From: a virus
Reading direction: 5' to 3' (one strand)
DNA: 20,985 nt
IMG/VR virus record: IMGVR_UViG_3300037322_000166
Location: 1-20,985 of that record
The translations under genes and the position numbers were made by a program. The notes below the pieces were generated by a model, which saw only the letters and a program-made list of their open reading frames with translations, was not told the origin of the DNA and ran no database searches. Below are positions 5,462 to 16,982 of the stretch, piece after piece. Position 1 is the stretch's first letter, and each line of letters starts with the position of its first letter.

Positions 5462-6118
5462 ATGAATCATCTAATATTCCTTGATAATAAATACACACGA
5501 TGTTATTATAACATTATTTTAAATATAAAGCAAGAAAATCGTAAACCTTTGAGTCGCGAATCTCTGGAATTTGTTTATTATGAAAAACATCATATAGAAC
5601 CAAAATCGTTAGGAGGTAGCAATCTCCCTGAAAATCTTGTGTTACTTACTGCCAGAGAGCATTTTATTTGCCACTTACTTCTTACTAAAATGACTTCTGG
5701 AGACAGTAAACGAAAAATGTCATATGCATTTTGGGGGTTAAATAATCAGGCAAACAAACATCAACATAGAAAAACATCAAGCAGATTTTACGATTATTCA
5801 AAAAGTATTATGCAAGAGTCTATGTCTGCAGATCGAAAAAATAAATCATTTGAAGATCTATATGGCAAAGAAAAATCCGATAAAATCAAAGAAAATATGA
5901 AATATCGAAAGACCAGAGGGCCTAATACACCGGAGGAGTCTTTAGCAGCATCTAACCGTATGAAAGAAAGACATCGGGAAAATCCATGGAAGAGATTCAT
6001 GCAGACGGTCGGTAAACTTCCACGAAAAGAGTGCCCACATTGTAACAAGATTATGGATGTGGGTAATTACGGAAGATACCACGGGGATAAGTGCAAATTA
6101 CGCCAGGTTTGCGAATAA
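5462..6118 (+). CDS. HNH endonuclease, free-standing homing type
   Basis: A 218-aa protein with an HNH core at about residues 41-75: YEKHHIEPKSLGG (the His pair), then LPENLVLLTAREHFICHLLL (central Asn and final His). A basic, helical middle follows with a segment typical of phage homing endonucleases (EESLAASNRMKERHRENPW). The C-terminus has a zinc-ribbon-like module, ECPHCNKIMDVGNYGRYHGDKC (CxxC, then HxxxC), often used for DNA binding. Such enzymes cut DNA site-specifically and spread themselves. It lies on the strand opposite to its neighbours, between queE and the 74-aa gene, overlaps the end of queE by 21 bases, and is AT-rich. Start chosen by the late promoter at 5449. Confidence 0.85.
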   Translation: MNHLIFLDNKYTRCYYNIILNIKQENRKPLSRESLEFVYYEKHHIEPKSLGGSNLPENLVLLTAREHFICHLLLTKMTSGDSKRKMSYAFWGLNNQANKHQHRKTSSRFYDYSKSIMQESMSADRKNKSFEDLYGKEKSDKIKENMKYRKTRGPNTPEESLAASNRMKERHRENPWKRFMQTVGKLPRKECPHCNKIMDVGNYGRYHGDKCKLRQVCE

Positions 6119-6970
6119 GTGCATTTGCATGTTCATTTTAAAACCGTGTTTCATACAATAGTTGCCGACATATTCGTGGTTTCGGGCAATAGCTGCCATG
6201 TCGAGTAATCCAGGTTCAAAGAAATTAATCTTCTCATCAACAGTGCTTCGCTCTGCCATAGTAATGTTACCCTTTTCGGCGCGCAGTAGTTTAATCTTTT
6301 GCGGGAAAGAGTTGTAAATATTCATTGGGCTACAGTAGATTTCTTTACCGGTTGTTCTTTTCCAGTCATGTGCCCAGTCCGGTACCTCATTGTACGGACT
6401 ATCAATATCTGAGCTCATTACAAACTTAAGGCAGTCTGCTCGTTCAAGGATAGTCTTGGATGGCTTAAAGTATTTTGTTGCCTTACCATCTTTCTCTGCA
6501 CACTTTGGCGAACATACAAGCGTAACACCTTCTGGAACGTCTGTATCGGGAATACCATTCGATTCAACCTGTACTTCTTTATAATCACCGAGTTGACGAC
6601 TCATGAACTCGCTTATATTGTCTTGCAGTAAAGGTTCGCCACCTGTCATTACAAGCACAACACCGGGATGTGTTGGACCACCCCTATCAGAGATAGCCCA
6701 GGTGGGTGCAGTGGAGTCTTTCCAGTAATCGGTAATAGTACTGATTGCCTTTGCTTCAATCTCCTGATATGTCATCCAGTCACCATCATCGAAGAATGTG
6801 TCACAGAAACTACACGTAAGATTGCACTTTGCTAGCCTAATAAACACTGCCGGCAAGCCAGCATAGGGGCCTTCCCCCTGGAGTGTAAAGAACATGCTTG
6901 TAACAAACAAACTGTCGACAGGGGCATCTTTGAAAAACTTCTTACCAGTCAGCTGATTTGTTCCGAACAT
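6098..6970 (-). CDS. queE: 7-carboxy-7-deazaguanine synthase (radical SAM)
   Basis: A 290-aa radical SAM enzyme of the QueE family, which converts carboxy-tetrahydropterin to 7-carboxy-7-deazaguanine on the route to preQ0. The N-terminus has FFTLQGEGPYAGLPAVFIRLAK split by GEGP (residues 32-35). The iron-sulfur CxxxCxxC motif is CNLTCSFCDTFF (Cys49, 53, 56). TGGEPLLQ (109-116), ESNG (136-139) and CSPK (153-156) follow as in known QueE. It is longer than E. coli QueE (223 aa), mostly by an internal insertion. AAGGA precedes the ATG. With the QueD-like and DpdA-like genes in this window it suggests phage DNA modification by 7-deazaguanine rather than only tRNA queuosine supply. Its 3' end overlaps the convergent HNH gene. 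Confidence 0.9.
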   Translation of the reverse strand: MFGTNQLTGKKFFKDAPVDSLFVTSMFFTLQGEGPYAGLPAVFIRLAKCNLTCSFCDTFFDDGDWMTYQEIEAKAISTITDYWKDSTAPTWAISDRGGPTHPGVVLVMTGGEPLLQDNISEFMSRQLGDYKEVQVESNGIPDTDVPEGVTLVCSPKCAEKDGKATKYFKPSKTILERADCLKFVMSSDIDSPYNEVPDWAHDWKRTTGKEIYCSPMNIYNSFPQKIKLLRAEKGNITMAERSTVDEKINFFEPGLLDMAAIARNHEYVGNYCMKHGFKMNMQMHLFANLA

Positions 6971-7475: not shown

Positions 7476-7785
7476 CTCTTTTCTCCCAAGTATGCATAAA
7501 CTTAGATAATCTTTGCATTTTATTCTGTTTTGCCTTTTCCAGGCCCTCGGTAGTTATACCCATTGAATCCTTAACCATGTCGACTAATGCGAGCACATCA
7601 CCTAATTCCATTTCCAGGCTTTCTAAATTTGTTAGAGTTGTATTTAGCGGTTTTCCCACTACACCGAATCTTTTTATTTTAGACGCTGCTTGAATTACTT
7701 CAGCGCACTCTTCCTGCAGAATGTTTAAACATTCTTCCTGGTGTTCATTTACTTGCTTCAAATTTTTGCTCCCAAACCCATGCAT
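7468..7785 (-). CDS. MazG-like nucleotide pyrophosphohydrolase
   Basis: A 105-aa all-helical protein of the MazG/dUTPase-like superfamily, which hydrolyses nucleoside triphosphates (or ppGpp-related nucleotides) to monophosphates. Metal-binding motifs are EECAE (residues 25-29, ExxE) and ELGD (60-63, ExxD), with LVDMVKDSMGI following. Marine T4-like phages commonly carry such genes, thought to adjust nucleotide pools. The start is uncertain: the ATG at 7785 overlaps galE by 41 bases and lacks a ribosome-binding site, while a TTG at 7761 has GGGAG seven bases upstream and would remove 8 residues. The substrate cannot be told from sequence. Confidence 0.8.
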   Translation of the reverse strand: MHGFGSKNLKQVNEHQEECLNILQEECAEVIQAASKIKRFGVVGKPLNTTLTNLESLEMELGDVLALVDMVKDSMGITTEGLEKAKQNKMQRLSKFMHTWEKRDE

Positions 7786-8710
7786 GTTTTATAATATCGT
7801 GTACACCGTATGTCGGCTCCCATTTCAGAATTTCTTTCGCCTTGTTGATATTGGCAACCAATTCTGCAGGATCGCCTGCGCGCCTTGCACCAAACACAAC
7901 TTTTGCTTCCTTGCCGACAATCTTTGATGCGTATTTACACAATTCTTTTACACTAATTCCATCGCTTCCGCCGCCGATGTTAAACGCCTGGTTAGCTAAG
8001 TCGGTATCTAATATGTCAAGTGCTAAGAGGTGAGCTCTGGCCAAATCGGCAACATGAACATAATCTCTTATGCAGGTGCCGTCCTTAGTGTGGTAATCGC
8101 TACCACAAATAGTAAACAAGTCATCGTTGAATATCTTGTTACAGAGTATAGGGATAACGTGTGTTGCAGGCCGCTGTGTGTATCCAAACCTTGCTTCGGG
8201 GTCGGCGCCAGCAGCATTAAAGTATCTGAATGTTACAAACTTTATCCCGTAGGCCCTAGCATAATCCTTAATTAGTAATTCTCCGGCCACTTTACTCGAG
8301 GCATAGGGATTTTCGGGATCGTAGTATAATCCCTCTTCTTTAAGTGGCCCTGCCAGGCCCTGGCGGCCATAAGTGTTGCCGCTAGAACTAAAGATAATAT
8401 TTTTAATGCCGGCAGCAAGCATACATTCAAGCATACCCTTCATTTTTATCACGTTATTTGTGTAATATTTCTCTGGTTCGGCGACGCTTTGTTCTACTAG
8501 ATGTTCAGCAGCCAGGTGAACTACAGTGTCATAATTTACAGTATTTTCTTTAAAGAAGTCTAGATAGTCTGCTACCTTATATATCCCAGGCGGGAAGTGA
8601 ACAGGGGGTTCTCTATCCACAATAGTGACATCGTGCCCGGCTTCGTGTAAACACCAGCCCACTTGCGTACCTATAAACCCGCCGCCACCTGTAATTATTA
8701 TTTTGCTCAT
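7745..8710 (-). CDS. galE: UDP-glucose 4-epimerase-like protein
   Basis: A 321-aa extended short-chain dehydrogenase of the GalE type, which interconverts UDP-glucose and UDP-galactose (or the N-acetyl forms) using bound NAD. Seen in order: the Rossmann motif ITGGGGFIG (residues 6-14), LAAEHLVEQS, the catalytic Ser region IFSSSGNTYG, YASSK (Tyr136, Lys140), and FRYFNAAGADPEARFG for substrate binding. Full length is slightly shorter than E. coli GalE (338 aa). An AGG ribosome-binding sequence precedes the ATG. It lies in the same run as a glycosyltransferase (10568-11749), so it may supply the sugar donor. The exact epimer specificity is not visible. Confidence 0.87.
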   Translation of the reverse strand: MSKIIITGGGGFIGTQVGWCLHEAGHDVTIVDREPPVHFPPGIYKVADYLDFFKENTVNYDTVVHLAAEHLVEQSVAEPEKYYTNNVIKMKGMLECMLAAGIKNIIFSSSGNTYGRQGLAGPLKEEGLYYDPENPYASSKVAGELLIKDYARAYGIKFVTFRYFNAAGADPEARFGYTQRPATHVIPILCNKIFNDDLFTICGSDYHTKDGTCIRDYVHVADLARAHLLALDILDTDLANQAFNIGGGSDGISVKELCKYASKIVGKEAKVVFGARRAGDPAELVANINKAKEILKWEPTYGVHDIIKHAWVWEQKFEASK

Positions 8711-8717
8711 TGAACCT

Positions 8718-8966
8718 TTATACCATAAATTTTATTTTGAAGAACAGTGCATCATCTAAATTTTCAAAACCCACAAACATGTAGGCTTTGGAAGCGCCGT
8801 CGAGAAATTTTATAGACACAAGTCCGTTGCTATTAGATTCCACCCAATCAATCATGAGAGGGAAATCAGGAGGAGTCTCAAACTTTAGGACAGTTTTGTA
8901 TTTTCTATCAAACACAACAGCCGAATCAGTTAGGCTGCTGTACTCCGTACTCAAGTATTGCACCAT
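8718..8966 (-). CDS. Small protein with an FExxDDAxxF C-terminal motif, 82 aa
   Basis: Begins MVQYLSTEYSSLTDS. A beta-rich body (YKTVLKFETPP, MIDWVESNSNGLVSIKF) ends with FVGFENLDDALFFKIKFMV, the ending shared with the two small proteins at 4939 and 5178. Function unknown. The frame extends upstream to 9032, but the ATG at 8966 is preferred for its GGAG only three bases ahead; it still overlaps the QueD-like gene by 41 bases. Confidence 0.65.
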   Translation of the reverse strand: MVQYLSTEYSSLTDSAVVFDRKYKTVLKFETPPDFPLMIDWVESNSNGLVSIKFLDGASKAYMFVGFENLDDALFFKIKFMV

Positions 8967-9285
8967 TTTCTCCGTCTTCACTGACTTCGACTGAAATTTT
9001 CCTACCAGGATATTTTTTAGATACGTAATCAATTAAATCCTCTGCAAGCATTTCGCAGCTTTTGTAATCCACTTGTAAAGTTGCTTCTGCGTAAAGAGCC
9101 TCAAGTTCTCTCTTGAATAAAATAAACTCGATATCTCGGTCATTATGGAAAACATCAATTTCAACCCTAAAGTGAAAAATGTGCCTATGCGGGTGAGCTA
9201 AAAATTCTACACCTACTGGTGCGTTTGGGTAGCGATGAATTCCTTCTTTACAAAATGTTATAAAGATTTTTCTGCTGCTAATCAT
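8926..9285 (-). CDS. QueD / 6-pyruvoyl-tetrahydropterin synthase-like protein
   Basis: A 119-aa protein that aligns by eye along its length with E. coli QueD. GIHRYP matches AAHRLP (zinc His17), HPHRHIFHFRVEI matches the HGH zinc pair (His33, His35), DIEFILFKRELEALY matches the IIDFAELK helix, SCEMLAEDLIDYV matches TSEVLAKWIW, and ISVEVSED matches the VMVKET strand. QueD makes carboxy-tetrahydropterin, the substrate of QueE. Two differences stand out: the usual catalytic Cys before the HGH is replaced (Leu29 region), and the Asp-His dyad is not evident. It is therefore a QueD-family relative whose activity is uncertain. A very good AAGGAG precedes the ATG. Confidence 0.65.
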   Translation of the reverse strand: MISSRKIFITFCKEGIHRYPNAPVGVEFLAHPHRHIFHFRVEIDVFHNDRDIEFILFKRELEALYAEATLQVDYKSCEMLAEDLIDYVSKKYPGRKISVEVSEDGENGAILEYGVQQPN

Positions 9286-10083
9286 TTATTCTCCTTTGGC
9301 CTTTTTTGCCGGCTTAACTGGTTTACTTAACGGGTCTTCTGTGGCGCCCTCTGCATATGCAGTGGCTGCATCAACCGGTTCTGTAACCTTTGCTATAGCT
9401 TCTTCTGGATCAGGTTTCAGCTTTGATACGGAAGTGGCATCAAGCCCGGCATCAACATCGTTCTTTAAGTCGGCTAGTTTACTGTCCGCTGCCCGAACAA
9501 TCGGTTCTACAGCACTAACAATTACATCCTCAACCGATTGTACAACTGGTGCAACAATTTTTTCTACCTTACTGATAATTTCGTCAGACTCGTATTCGAG
9601 CCAGCCAGTAAACCTGTTACTATCAGTTACCTCGTGAAAATGCATACACCATACTCCTGGATTAGTTGCGTTAAAGTCTACATCATCAATTTTTACTGTA
9701 AGGTTTGGACTCGATGTCTCGATATGGGGAATTCGTACACTTAGCAGTGGTACAAAAATTCGAGATTGCCAAATTCCCACATTTAACATTTTCAGTACTA
9801 TTTCGTGCTGATGAGCAGGATAATCTAGTGATACCCAAATACCGCTATCTAACAATGCTGTAATTGTCTTATCCCAGTAATTATCAGCAGCCGAACCCTG
9901 TGCATCAAAAGAATGATTAGCACCCATAAAAATGTGATGCACCCCGTTATCCTTCGCTTGTTTCGTAATTTCGGCAAGTGCTGGTTTGCCAACAACAAAC
10001 AGCGTCTTCTTTGAGAAGGCAGGGGTGTGTTCTACTTCTGGTCCAATAAAAAATACTGTGTTTTCGTGTCCGTCTCTATTCAT
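9286..10083 (-). CDS. Conserved phage protein of unknown function with low-complexity tail, 265 aa
   Basis: I recognise the general sequence (ENTVFFIGPEVEHTPAF, then HHIFMGANHSFD, IWVSLDYPAHQHE, FVPLLSVRIPHIE, NPGVWCMHFHEV) from uncharacterised proteins of T4-like marine phages. Residues 1-180 look like an alpha/beta fold with several His and Asp residues that could bind metal, but no known motif is complete. Residues about 185-265 are a low-complexity Ala/Val/Glu/Asp stretch ending in a Pro/Lys-rich tail (KPVKPAKKAKGE). The ATG has AAGGA upstream. Its stop abuts the start region of the QueD-like gene (TAAATG), so the two are tightly linked, which suggests but does not prove a related role. 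Confidence 0.75.
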   Translation of the reverse strand: MNRDGHENTVFFIGPEVEHTPAFSKKTLFVVGKPALAEITKQAKDNGVHHIFMGANHSFDAQGSAADNYWDKTITALLDSGIWVSLDYPAHQHEIVLKMLNVGIWQSRIFVPLLSVRIPHIETSSPNLTVKIDDVDFNATNPGVWCMHFHEVTDSNRFTGWLEYESDEIISKVEKIVAPVVQSVEDVIVSAVEPIVRAADSKLADLKNDVDAGLDATSVSKLKPDPEEAIAKVTEPVDAATAYAEGATEDPLSKPVKPAKKAKGE

Positions 10084-10107: not shown

Positions 10108-10566
10108 TTATCCTAATTCTTCTATCATCATTCCAGAAAATTCTATATTAAAGTCCGGTATATCAACCGGTAGATTTTTTTTAAAATTCTTTGCCACGGT
10201 GATATGCGCTCTATATTCCGGAAAATCACTAGTTGCGCCGTATTGTTCTTTAAAAATATTCTGTAACCTCTTTGCGTCTGGGCAATATATCTCGAGAACC
10301 AAAGTATCTTTTTCTTTACCAAACAGTGCGAATCCTCTTGGGATAGCGTTAAACGGTAGATTGAAGTTTTCTTTAGAAATATCTGGACACTCGGATTTAC
10401 TGTAAATTAGTGTACAGTGATATTCGTCCTTATCTTCGAGATTGTCAATCTCGAGTGACTGCATATAAGCAAACAACATACTGGCTGACTGCCTACTAGG
10501 GATTACAGCCGAATATGTACCTCCTGGATGGGTACTATTTTTCAGTGATTCTAATAACTTTTTCAT
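10108..10566 (-). CDS. 2H phosphoesterase, Acb1-like (possible anti-CBASS protein)
   Basis: A 152-aa protein with the two HxT motifs of the 2H phosphoesterase superfamily: EYHCTLIYSK (His50, Thr52) and YRAHITVAKN (His121, Thr123), 71 residues apart. T4 Acb1 (gp57B) is, from memory, about the same length, has nearly the same spacing, and cleaves the cyclic nucleotides that activate CBASS defence. A C-terminal acidic residue in FNIEFSG (Glu142) could match the Acb1 substrate-binding Glu. Other 2H enzymes (2'-5' RNA ligase or cyclic phosphodiesterase types) remain possible. It sits between the glycosyltransferase and the 265-aa gene. The superfamily is secure; Acb1 function is inferred. Confidence 0.7.
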   Translation of the reverse strand: MKKLLESLKNSTHPGGTYSAVIPSRQSASMLFAYMQSLEIDNLEDKDEYHCTLIYSKSECPDISKENFNLPFNAIPRGFALFGKEKDTLVLEIYCPDAKRLQNIFKEQYGATSDFPEYRAHITVAKNFKKNLPVDIPDFNIEFSGMMIEELG

Positions 10567-10567
10567 C

Positions 10568-11749
10568 TTAGTATTTTGCTTTTGCTACGTATTTTCTATA
10601 GTCGTTGCCGTTTCTGGCCCATTGCTCGCCCTTGCCTTCGAGTACATCGACTGTTCTATCGATGGTGCCATCTTGCCAATTGCTTACTGCACCTGTTATA
10701 TATTCATCTGGCCGGGTCATCATTGTTTCTAGCCGATTAGCAGCGTGATTGATGCTCCACGGGATATACATGTTTCTCTCGTTGTTTGCAAATACTTCAG
10801 GGAAGCTTCGATAAGCCGGGTAAAGGGTAAGTGTGCCAAACGTGTCGGCTTCGCTTACTGTGTTACTTACCCAGTCTTGTAATGCACAGTTAAATAAAAC
10901 GGTGCTGTCTGCAAGCAAGTTGTAATAGTCATTTTTCTTAAGACCAGTATAGATATTGAAGTTTGCTTTGTTGCTGTTCACTAGCGACATTGCACGATCT
11001 ACATACTTTTGATTATTACTCTTTAGTTCTGGGTGTCCACAGAATATAGCAAACTCAACATCAGTGCTCCTATTTGCATAGTATTCTTCGGCAAGATCCA
11101 TGTAAAAATCTGGTTGCTTTTCGTCGTCCCATCGCGCTGCAAACCCAACACGCTTTACTCTTTCTCCAATAGGCTTTACTACAGGTACTCTACTCTTAAC
11201 TTCTTCTTTACCAAACGGTAATCCGGTCACGTAGATAGGTGCACTAAACCCTGCTATCCTTAGATTTGCTACCATTTCTTCACTTGCTACTAAGATGCCA
11301 TCGACAAAGCTATCAATCATTCTCTCATAATGCTTCATCCATGTGCCCATACCTTCTCTGTTTACGAAATCGTCGGGGTCGATACTCTGAGCAAGGCACC
11401 TGACGTAAACACGCGGCCTATATTCGTGGGGTACTTGATCCATGATATACGGCAAGCTCTCAATTCCTGGAGTATACATGTCCTCGTAGAAGATTACATC
11501 TTCGCTTGTTACATTGCCTTCTTTCATTAGTTTAATAAGGTTGGCAGTCTGCATCATACTGTAATAAGTACGACCGTGTGCATCGAGCACACTTCCGGTG
11601 ACAATCCTTTTGTCTGTTGTCAACTCCGAACCAGTGACTAGATCGTAGTCAACTCCTCGGCGTTTGAAGACGCGTTCGTTCCAGTCGCTAAGTTGCAAAG
11701 AATACCTTGCCTCGTACTGCTCGAGCCCCATGTAAATTAGTTTTCTCAT
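10568..11749 (-). CDS. GT-B fold glycosyltransferase
   Basis: A 393-aa protein with the features of GT4-like glycosyltransferases: a connecting region VTGLPFG (175-181), the strand-loop VGFAARWDDEKQPDFYMDL (201-219), FAIFCGHPEL, IYTGLKKNDYYNLLADSTVLF (the usual segment before the donor site), and SEADTFGTLTLYPAYRSFPEVF (299-320), equivalent to the donor-phosphate and sugar-binding motif. These enzymes transfer a sugar from an activated nucleotide donor. The acceptor is unknown: phage DNA, a virion protein or a host component are all possible. GalE about 2 kb downstream in the same direction could feed it. AAAGGA precedes the ATG, which overlaps the 60-aa gene's stop. Confidence 0.82.
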   Translation of the reverse strand: MRKLIYMGLEQYEARYSLQLSDWNERVFKRRGVDYDLVTGSELTTDKRIVTGSVLDAHGRTYYSMMQTANLIKLMKEGNVTSEDVIFYEDMYTPGIESLPYIMDQVPHEYRPRVYVRCLAQSIDPDDFVNREGMGTWMKHYERMIDSFVDGILVASEEMVANLRIAGFSAPIYVTGLPFGKEEVKSRVPVVKPIGERVKRVGFAARWDDEKQPDFYMDLAEEYYANRSTDVEFAIFCGHPELKSNNQKYVDRAMSLVNSNKANFNIYTGLKKNDYYNLLADSTVLFNCALQDWVSNTVSEADTFGTLTLYPAYRSFPEVFANNERNMYIPWSINHAANRLETMMTRPDEYITGAVSNWQDGTIDRTVDVLEGKGEQWARNGNDYRKYVAKAKY

Positions 11750-12952: not shown

Positions 12953-13378
12953 TTATATTCCTGATAGTTTATTAAGTACAGCCTCTTGCTCAGCCCATTT
13001 AAGTTCTTGATCAATACGTATTCTATAGTATTCCCTGATGACATTGCGATTATTCCAGATAAAATCTTCGTACCTCCTAAGGCCGTTACAAGGGCAACCG
13101 TCGACAAATGTATTGCCGTCGATCTCAGAGTAGTGAATAAAATCACTTTCGTAATCTATTACGACACCGTCGGGGTTAGCTTCCTGCTCTGCTTCGCAAC
13201 TATCTACCATAGATTGATAGTCCTCCGGCTCGTCACTATCTTGCAAATTACTCGGCGCATAATGATCTCTGCCACAATTGCAATGAACACTAGATCCTCC
13301 GCCACCATGCGCAGATCTAATAAACATCCTTGACGGTTGTTTTGAATTACTTGCGTAAGTATCTTTGCTCGAACTCAT
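12953..13378 (-). CDS. Cysteine-containing hypothetical protein, possible zinc binder, 141 aa
   Basis: Two short cysteine clusters stand out: VHCNCGRDHY (residues about 31-40) and GCPCNGLRRYE (about 94-104). Together they could form a four-Cys metal site. The N-terminus is polar and Ser-rich, the middle acidic (DSDEPEDYQSMVDSCEAEQE), and the C-terminus a charged helix (NRNVIREYYRIRIDQELKW). I recall similar CxCGR proteins in T4-like phages, without known function. It is coupled to the DHH gene by overlapping start and stop (ATGA). The metal-binding idea is inference. Confidence 0.7.
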   Translation of the reverse strand: MSSSKDTYASNSKQPSRMFIRSAHGGGGSSVHCNCGRDHYAPSNLQDSDEPEDYQSMVDSCEAEQEANPDGVVIDYESDFIHYSEIDGNTFVDGCPCNGLRRYEDFIWNNRNVIREYYRIRIDQELKWAEQEAVLNKLSGI

Positions 13379-14202
13379 AGTTCAAATTGTGCAAGTTGGT
13401 CATACGGCACTCTAAATCCGGCTGCGTGGAAATGTCCACCACCGCCGTACTTTACTGCAATTGCAGAAACATCTATTCCCTCGGTTGACGACCGTAAGCT
13501 ATATTCTCTGCCGGCCGGCTTATCATAATAACATGCCGCAAACGGTTCGTCAACCGCCATAATGTGCCCAGCCTCAGAGCTCATTGTGTAAGGAAGGTTA
13601 CAGACAGGTACATTATGTCCATCGATTACTTGCCGTTTCTTTAGCACACCGATTAATTCTCTAATGTCTCTTAGGTGTTTTCTATCAATTACCTTGCCTT
13701 CTGTAATTAACGTGTCTACATCGGCGCTCATTAACATGTCCCAATTTTCAAAAGTGTAATCGTAACTGAAAATTGATGCCTGAATCTCCTTAGTGTACGG
13801 AATCTTAAACTGCCACCGATCCCTGTCATCGACATGTTTAATAATCTGCGGAACATCCTCGTCGGGGAAGAAGAACATCCAGGTTAACATAGCACCACTT
13901 GCTGTGTTTTCTGGGCTGTATAAAACAGTCATATGTTTTTCTAAACCCGCACAATCAGCAATAGCTGTTGCGTGGTGGTCAATGTGTGTAACACTTGCTG
14001 CTTTAGCAATGATTTCTTCCATAACCGGACGCTTATACGCAAAATCTACAATGTATACATCTGCGCCGGTAACGTCCGGTGGCGGAGTTTGATAAACCCC
14101 TGGTACGAATTCGACATCCTCCCCCAGCGCTCGCCTAACCACCCACGCTGCGGTAAATCCATCTGCACAGTTTCCGTGATAGATACAAATTTTCTTATTC
14201 AT
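13375..14202 (-). CDS. DHH-family phosphoesterase
   Basis: A 275-aa DHH/DHHA1 protein. Motifs in order: YHGNCADGFTAAWVV (residues 8-22; the metal-binding Asp is in CADG), IVDFAYK (51-57), VTHIDHHAT (71-79; the DHH motif), VDDRDRW (about 128-134), and the C-terminal DHHA1 signature YGGGGHFHAAGFRV. Family members include RecJ, nanoRNases and cyclic-dinucleotide phosphodiesterases. The short length and layout fit the nanoRNase/oligonucleotide-phosphodiesterase side rather than RecJ. Roles in nucleotide recycling or in removing cyclic nucleotide signals are possible but not shown. A good AGAGAG precedes the ATG. Confidence 0.85.
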   Translation of the reverse strand: MNKKICIYHGNCADGFTAAWVVRRALGEDVEFVPGVYQTPPPDVTGADVYIVDFAYKRPVMEEIIAKAASVTHIDHHATAIADCAGLEKHMTVLYSPENTASGAMLTWMFFFPDEDVPQIIKHVDDRDRWQFKIPYTKEIQASIFSYDYTFENWDMLMSADVDTLITEGKVIDRKHLRDIRELIGVLKKRQVIDGHNVPVCNLPYTMSSEAGHIMAVDEPFAACYYDKPAGREYSLRSSTEGIDVSAIAVKYGGGGHFHAAGFRVPYDQLAQFEL

Positions 14203-14435
14203 TTAACTCTCTTTGTCTCAATTTTATTTTTGTGTCGTATATTTCCAACGCGACGCTTTATTGCCCTGGAAAGATACACAGGACTCTGATTTGCAAACAT
14301 TGCATGAGCACATATTAGCCCATTGAGCATCCCGTGCATGTATTGCACACTACTATCGCCGGCAATCACAGAATCCTCCTGAATTGCAATTAATTGCTCG
14401 AGACTAGATAGTTTTTTTTGCAAATCCTCATTCAT
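14199..14435 (-). CDS. Conserved phage hypothetical protein, 78 aa
   Basis: A helical protein with the segment LEQLIAIQEDSVIAGDSSVQYMHGMLNGLICAHAMF, which I recall as a conserved pattern in small T4-like phage proteins of unknown function. The C-terminus is strongly basic (SRAIKRRVGNIRHKNKIETKRVK), so nucleic-acid contact is possible. The ATG lies within the last codons of the DpdA-like gene and its own stop overlaps the DHH start. Confidence 0.7.
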   Translation of the reverse strand: MNEDLQKKLSSLEQLIAIQEDSVIAGDSSVQYMHGMLNGLICAHAMFANQSPVYLSRAIKRRVGNIRHKNKIETKRVK

Positions 14436-15984
14436 CGATGTCGGGGTCTTCCATATCGTACATATCCGCCATATCTTCCCCAGTAGGTGCTTTCTTGCTG
14501 TCTGTGACGTTTACATCGAAGTGCTCATTGAACATATCATTTTTCTTCTTACCAAAACTAATGCTTTCCAGACAGTCCGCATAATCCTGTAACATCTTAT
14601 AAGGATCGGGATTAGACGGATCTAACAATTCCTCCACAAAACTCTTAAAGAATAGAATTCTATTAGGAATATGATCGCTAATCATGTGTTTTGCCTTAGC
14701 TAAGTTCTTTGGCCAATCACTGTGGTGGAACTTCTTTCTATTATATTCGATGTCAGCTAAACGGTTTACTTCCTGAATTGCCTGAATATGGTTGTATACG
14801 TTGTGTGCCATTACTAGCGCGTATGAAGTAGTATCCCAGCTTGTCTTACCTTCTTTGCCATGTTTGTTAAGATCTCCGTGGCCCATTGGACACATATCAC
14901 CCGTGGTAAGTCTTTCCATAATTGGCCCCTGGAAAGGCATTCTGTGTGTTGTTCCCTTTAAGTTCTTGTCATCAATGCCTTTGCCCATTGCATATGTTAA
15001 CTGATCTGGCTTGAAGTAATTATAATTATAAGACAATGCATACCCACCGGCTGCCACAAAGGGGCTAGCAGCATCAAAGCTAATGTTGATGTTGGGATTG
15101 TCGTATTTCCTTAGTAATCGCTCAATGGCTGTTAAGTAGCAGGCCCAATCAAGTCTGCCAATGCCCAGAAAGTGAATCCAGTCTTTTGTAGCAAGTAGAT
15201 TATCTTTTCTAAGATCTAGAATACGCTCGAGCACAGTTCTCATATGGCGCATGTTGATACCAGCAAACGCCCAACCTTCGAACGCACGGTCTTTACCGTA
15301 GCCAAGCTCTTCGGTTACTTCCGGCATGCTGTAAGGCGTTACACGGTCGTACCATGTTTTAGAGTTTTCGCTGCTACTACCAGACAACACATTAAGAAAC
15401 TTTGTTGCACCGGGAACCCTATTAGTAATAAAATACTTTAGGTTGTGCTCTGTGATATCCAGAGTGTCCATGAAGTCATTAAGTCCTGTCTTCTGTGACA
15501 ATGGAAATTCCGCAGCAAACGCAGGAACATCAAGAGTCATGGACCAGTCTGATGTGTGCTCTAAGTACCTAAGAATCTCTTCTCTAAGCTTATCGCCTTC
15601 TGGGCCCTTAACTGTGGTCCAGTCAAGTTTAATTACACCGGTGGCAATCTGAAAACCGCCCGAGTCACCAATAAGGATTGTATTTTCTCGATCACGTTTA
15701 TGAATCATAGGTTCTCTATCATCGCAACGATCCAGTTTTCTTTCTGCATGTCCTGCAGAATACAGGCCAAATTTATAGTTGAAGTAACTCTCCTCTGGCT
15801 TAAGAAAATCTAGGCCCTGTAGCCCATACTCAAACTCGGCCGGAACACGACTCTCCGGCACAAAGTCAGGGTTGGATAACGCTTTACCAAGGTGAGTAGT
15901 ATAGAAACCACTAATAGCCGGCAAATACTTTGCCCAGCCACCCTCAATATGTCGTTCTGTAAAGTTAACTCTATTTTTATTCAT
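14428..15984 (-). CDS. dpdA: DpdA-like DNA transglycosylase (tRNA-guanine transglycosylase family)
   Basis: A 518-aa protein with the marks of the TGT superfamily, whose members swap guanine for a 7-deazaguanine. ILIGDSGGFQIATG (Asp107) matches the TGT active-site DSGGFQ. EGWAFAGIN and WIHFLGIGRLDW match the two glycine loops of the barrel. INISFDAASPF (Asp304) lies where the TGT nucleophile Asp sits. CPMGHGDLN, followed by YALVMAHNVYNHI (His394), resembles a remnant of the zinc-binding C-terminal part. It is longer than bacterial TGT (about 375 aa), as DpdA proteins are, and ends in an acidic tail. With QueE and the QueD-like protein it points to 7-deazaguanine insertion into phage DNA. A tRNA target is the less likely alternative. 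Confidence 0.78.
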   Translation of the reverse strand: MNKNRVNFTERHIEGGWAKYLPAISGFYTTHLGKALSNPDFVPESRVPAEFEYGLQGLDFLKPEESYFNYKFGLYSAGHAERKLDRCDDREPMIHKRDRENTILIGDSGGFQIATGVIKLDWTTVKGPEGDKLREEILRYLEHTSDWSMTLDVPAFAAEFPLSQKTGLNDFMDTLDITEHNLKYFITNRVPGATKFLNVLSGSSSENSKTWYDRVTPYSMPEVTEELGYGKDRAFEGWAFAGINMRHMRTVLERILDLRKDNLLATKDWIHFLGIGRLDWACYLTAIERLLRKYDNPNINISFDAASPFVAAGGYALSYNYNYFKPDQLTYAMGKGIDDKNLKGTTHRMPFQGPIMERLTTGDMCPMGHGDLNKHGKEGKTSWDTTSYALVMAHNVYNHIQAIQEVNRLADIEYNRKKFHHSDWPKNLAKAKHMISDHIPNRILFFKSFVEELLDPSNPDPYKMLQDYADCLESISFGKKKNDMFNEHFDVNVTDSKKAPTGEDMADMYDMEDPDIDE

Positions 15985-16235: not shown

Positions 16236-16982
16236 TTAAGCCTTGCCTGCTGGCAGAATATAAGAGTATTTGCCAATACCGCTATCAATGTCAATCTTCA
16301 GTGCACCCATATCAGAGAAATACATTGTTGTCGTAGACGCAGTCTCGCTTAATTTAAGGATACCAAGTACCTGTGTTAAAGGCCATGACCACTGGTGCTT
16401 TAATGTTCCAGTGACATTGTCGGCAAACGGAACAGTTGTTCTGTCTGTGGGACCTGTACCTACGTTAAAGTTCAGTGTGCCTTTATCAACGCTAACTACA
16501 AATCGCTTTTCAAACCCGCCGAGCACACCCTGGAAGTAGGATAGCTCAGTAATCTTCTTTTTCTCTGGAACAATTGTCAAGTTCCATGTTGCACCTTTAA
16601 ACGGCGGAACCTTGATCTGTTCATTGATCATGGACTCGCTCATAAAGCGATAGTTCGATAAGTGACCGCTACCACTGTCGAACTTAATTTCTGTGGGTAC
16701 ATTGTCGGCTCCACGCATCTCTTTAACAATGCTTACGTCTGACTTTCCACCAGAGAATAGCGGAAAGTCGATATAGCCCTTCAACACGCCAATGCGCGAG
16801 AGTCCCACTGTCGTGTCGATGTCTGCAATAGGTTGGTACATATCTCCAAAGATAACAACAGTCTTATCTGCGTCAATTGCCTCAATCTTGGCATCGGATG
16901 CTGTACCTACAATCTTAACCATATCGATAAAGCCTAAGTTGCTTGTGTGCTTTACAATATCTTTCAATGAATCTAATAACAT
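16236..16982 (-). CDS. 45: Sliding clamp, gp45-like DNA polymerase processivity factor
   Basis: A 248-aa protein placed immediately downstream of gp43, close to T4 gp45 in length (228 aa). It shows the clamp pattern of repeated beta strands with two half-domains: IDTTVGLSRIGVLKGYIDFPLF corresponds to the gp45 segment with DLNGFLGILSL, and the second half ends WSWPLTQVLGILKLSE then MYFSDMGALKIDIDSG. The clamp rings DNA, tethers gp43 and, in T4, activates late transcription through gp55/gp33. It has its own sigma70-like promoter just after the gp43 stop, a leader of about 40 bases, and AAAGGA before the ATG. The identification rests on pattern and position, not on a strong motif. Confidence 0.75.
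   Translation of the reverse strand: MLLDSLKDIVKHTSNLGFIDMVKIVGTASDAKIEAIDADKTVVIFGDMYQPIADIDTTVGLSRIGVLKGYIDFPLFSGGKSDVSIVKEMRGADNVPTEIKFDSGSGHLSNYRFMSESMINEQIKVPPFKGATWNLTIVPEKKKITELSYFQGVLGGFEKRFVVSVDKGTLNFNVGTGPTDRTTVPFADNVTGTLKHQWSWPLTQVLGILKLSETASTTTMYFSDMGALKIDIDSGIGKYSYILPAGKA

Follow-up and report, generated by a model that had tools for sequence, protein, structure and literature searches.

A phage replication block encoding a DpdA-like guanine transglycosylase and a linked glycosyltransferase: a probable 7-deazaguanine DNA modification system

Organization of the gene block

The window analyzed here comprises the entire virus record IMGVR_UViG_3300037322_000166 (20,985 bases), and the search for genes within the virus's own genome was confined to that fragment. 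The window is a replication block in which nearly all genes are located on the minus strand, including those for a family B polymerase and a clamp-like protein. The principal features are as follows.

6098–6970, minus strand: QueE (CDG synthase) with the radical SAM motif CX3CX2C; phrog_2076, E 4.6e-47
7745–8710, minus strand: UDP-glucose 4-epimerase (GalE), possible supplier of a sugar donor; TIGR01179, 285.8 bits against a cut-off of 262.3
8926–9285, minus strand: QueD-like T-fold protein of 119 aa, candidate DpdL; zinc residues His17, His33 and His35 present, QueD Cys and Asp-His dyad absent
9286–10083, minus strand: unknown family (FFIGPEVEHTPA...; FFIGPEVEHTPAFSKKTLFVVG...) directly upstream of the QueD-like gene, noted for its co-occurrence across loci
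10568–11749, minus strand: GT-B glycosyltransferase of 393 aa, possibly performing an extra step on the modified base; weak match to Pfam Glycos_transf_1
14428–15984, minus strand: DpdA-like guanine transglycosylase of 518 aa with an ATG start, Asp107 (DSGGFQ) and Asp304 (SFDAAS); ~38 C-terminal residues are disordered
16236–16982, minus strand: sliding-clamp-like protein; phrog_12062 (function unknown), adjoining the polymerase as does the annotated clamp of phage Phosso
17062–20013, minus strand: family B DNA polymerase; PF00136, E 1.5e-25; phrog_262, E 6.8e-190

An earlier sequence-only reading of this DNA placed QueE at 6098–6970, which was confirmed by the match to phrog_2076 and by the sequence CNLTCSFC that conforms to CX3CX2C. 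The protein also matched TIGR03963 (E 2.6e-21), a score below the cut-off for that model. The same reading viewed the modification genes as spread through the genome rather than clustered. This description was not borne out: the genes form a block on one strand that recurs in relatives, with the DpdA-like gene located in the polymerase-clamp operon. Phages Paride, PA5oct and Callisto (Wroclawvirus) possess genes for the polymerase, clamp-like protein, DpdA-like protein, glycosyltransferase, QueD-like protein and QueE in the same order as the window, and encode FolE and QueD at other genomic sites. These phages differ from the window in that the DpdA-like proteins are 52% identical and the glycosyltransferases only 22%, and the proteins other than QueE are annotated as hypothetical. 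Comparison of the whole window with phages by megablast produced no match, and no Rfam families were found in the window.

The family encoded at 9286–10083 was present in 79 of 100 TGT-like loci and in 42 of 80 QueD-like loci. Among phage isolates it was detected only in the Pseudomonas PA5oct group and in ACP17, both of which possess the QueD-like gene. Comparison with QueE, QueD and DpdA2 profiles revealed no kinship. The family possibly is an uncharacterized partner in the pathway. Between this gene and that for the glycosyltransferase is an Acb1-type anti-CBASS 2H phosphodiesterase gene (10108–10566, minus strand; PF23474, E 1.9e-14) which, by this match, is a second counter-defence gene within the same block. 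An HNH-type endonuclease gene (5462–6118, plus strand; PF01844) adjoins queE on the opposite strand. A DHH phosphoesterase gene (13375–14202, minus strand; phrog_4771, E 5.7e-99) is situated just downstream of a small open reading frame that follows the transglycosylase gene, and was present in only some relatives in the locus scan.

Fold and kinship of the transglycosylase

The DpdA-like protein possesses 22 close homologs in IMG/VR with 54–75% identity, and a profile query recovered relatives on >590 virus contigs. Matches among isolates comprised 13 records. Eleven are from Pseudomonas jumbo phages in the PA5oct/Paride group, with 52% identity to the window protein, and the remaining two are from Sinorhizobium phage Phosso and from Vibrio phage 2.275.O, with 28–29% identity to it. 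Codon comparisons revealed differences of 0.57–0.59 at third positions versus 0.15–0.18 at second positions, and the gene is under purifying selection. Searches of the protein against Pfam, PHROGs, NCBIfam and PADLOC (Pfam and NCBIfam at E 0.01), and against PDB sequences with both the single sequence and a profile, yielded no match. The protein is a member of a widespread DpdA-like subfamily that is missed by sequence models.

Assignment of the protein to the TGT superfamily had been proposed from the DSGGFQ motif with Asp107, two glycine loops and Asp304, and was upheld by the structural data. Asp107 and Asp304 were 100% conserved across 56 sequences. An AlphaFold2 model for which 56 diverse sequences were the input (pLDDT 88, pTM 0.89) placed the glycine-bearing segments EGWAFAG and WIHFLGIG in predicted strands in the correct order. 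The best PDB matches to the model in Foldseek were TGTs (4gcx, E 4.7e-5), and a second structural aligner produced a Z-score of 20.2 with the Thermotoga TGT (2ash; rmsd 4.3, 293 aligned residues), the best 50 matches all being TGT or arcTGT structures. The sequence-only reading had suggested comparison of a predicted structure with DpdA as well as with TGT: among viral models, Foldseek matched nt-1 DpdA2 with an E-value of 1.1e-9. A 259-aa protein of Cellulophaga phage phiST also was recovered (1.6e-3). This hypothetical protein (L058:12807-13586), which by length apparently is M4SLA5, is encoded two genes from a QueD-like gene and, on the basis of the model comparison, is possibly a minimal DpdA.

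In profile-profile comparison the DpdA-like family aligned with the DpdA2 family with an E-value of 3.7e-7 and a probability of 93, and both Asp residues were aligned. The DpdA-like family did not match nt-1 or X1 DpdA2 by BLAST or HMM, and hhalign comparisons of its profile with the single 9g and nt-1 DpdA sequences were insignificant. On the profile evidence, the enzyme appears to be related to DpdA2 as a different subfamily, and probably also stands apart from 9g DpdA. Features in common with nt-1 DpdA2 (YP_008125322; PMC6884629) include the TGT fold, profile-aligned DSGG and S-[FY]-D motifs, a large myovirus as the carrier and nearby 7-deazaguanine genes. However, BLAST-type and profile HMM searches of the nt-1 genome did not recover the window family, and nt-1 possesses QueC but neither the QueD-like gene nor the glycosyltransferase. 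The homolog in phage 2.275.O (AUS03049, annotated as hypothetical) belongs to the same family as the window protein, with 28% identity in tblastn (E 9e-21) and a family match of E 4.6e-155 using a profile that includes the 2.275.O sequence itself. This gene adjoins a 7-deazaguanine cluster (QueF, YhhQ, QueC and FolE, with QueE and QueD further on). Phage 2.275.O differs from the window in the presence of QueC, QueF, YhhQ and an amidoligase-like gene, and in the absence of the QueD-like protein and glycosyltransferase.

The QueD-like protein and the CDG branch

The protein encoded at 8926–9285 had been described as a relative of QueD. This description held for the fold, but not for QueD activity. 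Alignment of the family with phage QueD by hhalign was weak (probability 57%) and the families therefore were compared by structure; a PDB profile search with the QueD-like family returned only noise. The structure nearest to an AlphaFold2 model of the protein (pLDDT 92) was E. coli QueD (4ntk; Foldseek E 8e-7; Z 11.8, 28% identity), with which it shares the T-fold, three zinc histidines and a conserved C-terminal Glu. Residues H17, H33 and H35 were invariant in 48 sequences. In contrast to E. coli QueD, neither the window protein nor any of four relatives has the Asp-His dyad or the catalytic Cys that precedes the HxH pair by four residues, whereas these residues are present in phage QueDs. 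Moreover, a separate QueD coexists with the QueD-like protein in Paride, ACP17, phiST and others; Paride encodes the QueD-like protein plus two PTPS genes near FolE. The missing catalytic residues and the separate PTPS genes in Paride indicate that the QueD-like protein performs a different step and is not the QueD of the pathway.

All 11 isolate lineages that carry the QueD-like gene possessed QueE and also FolE, the latter either nearby or elsewhere in the genome. FolE and PTPS genes also were present on long contigs of three relatives (G001, G003 and G005), as in Paride, and each of these had QueE. Canonical full-length QueC was not found in any of the 11 isolate lineages (Paride, Phosso and nine others) in whole-genome Pfam searches in which the QueC model was positive for all 14 control genomes as well as for nt-1, 9g and 2.275.O. 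The latter three QueC phages lack the QueD-like gene. Among 180 metagenomic loci, 80 selected via the QueD-like gene and 100 via the TGT-like gene, FolE was identified in 52 and 38, respectively, and QueE in 27 and 35. QueC was found in none with a model built from three sequences, the whole-genome tests having used Pfam. As the loci were selected by these genes and many are related, the counts are not independent, and the isolate lineages offer a fairer basis for comparison.

QueC and the QueD-like gene thus appear to substitute for one another where the pathway branches at CDG, a pattern most simply read as action of the QueD-like protein on CDG. Together with the absence of canonical QueC, this leads to 7-deazaguanine or CDG as the predicted base. 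A preQ0 base, as implied by the sequence-only reading, accordingly was not supported, in view of the distribution of QueC and the loss of QueD catalytic residues. The QueD-like protein probably processes CDG and is perhaps a candidate for the CDG decarboxylase DpdL. Cui and colleagues reportedly gave the name DpdL to a CDG decarboxylase in 2023, with dDG and dCDG said to occur in phages. The occurrence of QueD-like homologs in the isolates ACP17 and phiST would be in keeping with that account. A full-text literature search for DpdL as a CDG decarboxylase returned no match.

Weak QueC matches in X1 and in relative G007 proved to be NAD-synthase-like when the sequences were read singly, and a weak match in G005 was to an asparagine-synthase-like PP-loop protein. 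Divergent PP-loop ATPases with a C-terminal cysteine cluster and weak QueC scores were noted in G003, G005 and D479 (L033, L036 and L152). These proteins leave small room for a QueC-like step.

A linked glycosyltransferase and the proposed modification

The glycosyltransferase gene is located between those for the transglycosylase and the QueD-like protein. Across loci the median distance to the QueD-like gene was ~240–610 bp on the same strand. Relatives, all mutually homologous, are positioned near the QueD-like gene in Paride, Phosso, ACP17, X1 and BUCT-ZZ01. Like the window relatives, Acidovorax phage ACP17, Xanthomonas phage X1 and Synechococcus phage BUCT-ZZ01 possess FolE, QueE, the QueD-like protein and a related glycosyltransferase together, and canonical QueC was not found in them, but a DpdA2-type transglycosylase is present instead of the window type. 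When 50,697 phage records were searched, the glycosyltransferase family was recovered in 11 records with a window-type query and in 20 with a Phosso-type query. The 20 records represent approximately six independent lineages. A QueD-like gene is present in 16 of them, leaving PhiXhv-12, PhiXhv-15, PhiXhv-16 and Ep032. The glycosyltransferase is ≤2 genes from Gat-QueC in PhiXhv-12 and Ep032, and a QueC match is ~1 kb from it in PhiXhv-15; PhiXhv-16 was counted with the 7-deazaguanine phages by relatedness. GalE accompanied the window-type glycosyltransferase in 56 of 74 loci, compared with 0 of 50 loci that lack the glycosyltransferase.

The family appears to be essentially confined to 7-deazaguanine phages, a link that is new here; the sequence-only reading had not drawn the neighboring glycosyltransferase and GalE genes into its account. 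It was the least expected result of the analysis and suggests that a sugar is placed on the modified base. In role, the protein may be likened to the DNA glucosyltransferases of phage T4 as a phage glycosyltransferase in a DNA-modifying phage. The acceptor for the T4 enzymes is hydroxymethylcytosine. In Xanthomonas phage PhiXhv-12 (L235:9618-13704), a Gat-QueC gene annotated as L-glutamine-D-fructose-6-phosphate aminotransferase is followed by genes for a PIG-L deacetylase, the glycosyltransferase and a GFO/IDH oxidoreductase. From its gene content this cassette looks like a system for amino-sugar addition in a 7-deazaguanine phage.

The scheme that we favor, and consider reasonably probable as a whole, is a phage DNA-modification block that employs a CDG branch, DpdA-like base exchange and restriction evasion, with possible glycosylation. 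FolE and QueD, which would be encoded beyond the window as judged from relatives, and QueE within it would produce 7-carboxy-7-deazaguanine (CDG), with the pathway stopping short of preQ0. The QueD-like zinc protein would then process CDG, most likely by decarboxylation to 7-deazaguanine (DG). The DpdA-like transglycosylase would swap guanine in phage DNA for 7-deazaguanine by a TGT-like reaction involving Asp107 and Asp304, such that some guanines in the phage DNA probably are replaced by the 7-deaza form. The modified base would mask recognition sites for restriction enzymes. Decoration of the product by the linked glycosyltransferase using a UDP-sugar supplied by GalE is possible. The folds, the catalytic residues, the gene content and linkage and the lack of canonical QueC among relatives are observed, whereas a substrate of DNA and not tRNA, the decarboxylation, the resistance to restriction and any glycosylation are inferred. 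Unsubstituted DG would provide no obvious acceptor for this glycosyltransferase, which is a point against the scheme.

The assignment of a DNA substrate was weighed against the alternative that the protein is a tRNA-acting TGT used by the phage to alter host or phage tRNAs. The fold is shared with tRNA TGTs and arcTGT and cannot itself distinguish a DNA from a tRNA substrate. The Zymomonas and Thermotoga tRNA TGTs have this fold and the Asp pair in common with the window protein, but the latter has a longer chain, 13–16% identity and no zinc-cysteine site: the bacterial CXCXXC...H signature was not found and C365 is the sole conserved Cys after Asp304. By profile DpdA2 is closer. At the second Asp the window protein reads SFDAAS (motif D-[SA]-[SA]-S), which is similar by eye to SCDSSS in 9g and SYDSST in nt-1. 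The clamp-like gene was found in 98 and the polymerase gene in 96 of 100 DpdA-like loci, and no tRNA genes were found in the window. Considering the missing zinc site, the DpdA2 profile match, the second-Asp motif, the neighboring 7-deazaguanine genes in 2.275.O and the linkage to the polymerase and clamp, we infer that the enzyme acts on DNA and judge a tRNA-directed role very unlikely. The kinship with the DpdA group put forward in the sequence-only reading thus is sustained by the profile match, the lack of the tRNA-TGT zinc site and the 7-deazaguanine company, and the proposal of 7-deazaguanine in the phage DNA stands as probable in light of the accompanying 7-deazaguanine genes. A DNA-acting enzyme could instead insert preQ0 (or preQ1/G+). 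In that case the QueC step would come from the host or from a divergent phage PP-loop protein, and the role of the QueD-like protein would be confined to raising precursor supply. Host genomes generally encode QueC, and preQ0 could come from this source. Moreover, the 2.275.O member of the same TGT-like family is accompanied by QueC and QueF, and divergent QueC-like proteins occur in G003 and G005. The DNA of nt-1, a DpdA2 phage, contains dPreQ0, and both nt-1 and 9g use preQ0/G+ (PMC6884629). Nevertheless, this reading is improbable given the absence of canonical QueC from the 11 lineages and 180 loci, the absence of the QueD-like gene from the QueC phages nt-1, 9g and 2.275.O, and a QueD-like protein that is devoid of QueD catalytic residues in phages which have a separate QueD.

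More plausible than either, although still doubtful, is a glycosylated 7-deazaguanine: a CDG-derived base, formed without passing through preQ0, would be inserted by the new DpdA subfamily, and the GT-B enzyme would add a sugar from a UDP-sugar supplied by GalE. This reading extends the favored scheme more than it opposes it, and the QueD-like protein may not decarboxylate its substrate. Restriction of the glycosyltransferase to 20 of 50,697 records, of which 16 have the QueD-like gene and three more have QueC or Gat-QueC within approximately two genes, argues for glycosylation, as do the short same-strand spacing, the tracking of the window-type enzyme by GalE and the PIG-L deacetylase between Gat-QueC and the glycosyltransferase in PhiXhv-12. 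However, the glycosyltransferase was not matched in the QueD-like lineages phiST, RHph_I1_18, Bakedbeans, D479, Ahp1 and MA9V-3, the linked loci share descent, and another base or a protein could be the target. As unsubstituted DG lacks an obvious acceptor, either the QueD-like protein is not a decarboxylase or the glycosyltransferase has a different target.

The favored DNA-modification scheme is of a known kind, from which it would differ in its DpdA-like subfamily, in the use of a CDG branch by jumbo phages and in the glycosyltransferase tied to it. The scheme provides a chemical prediction for the cultured Paride/PA5oct jumbo phages, which are studied for therapy and for killing of dormant cells. 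The Paride paper nowhere mentions DNA modification or queuosine, and no report on the DNA chemistry of Paride/PA5oct phages was found in the literature examined. The uncharacterized glycosyltransferase family is tied to 7-deazaguanine pathways and, if it acts on the base, would establish a novel class of DNA hypermodification and offer another means of restriction evasion. A glycosylated 7-deazaguanine, if true, would be the DNA counterpart of the glycosylated queuosine of tRNA. In phage 2.275.O, the amidoligase-like protein (L026:16633-17745; weak PF12224) is encoded between the DpdA-like gene and QueF, and could add an amino acid to the 7-deazaguanine base.
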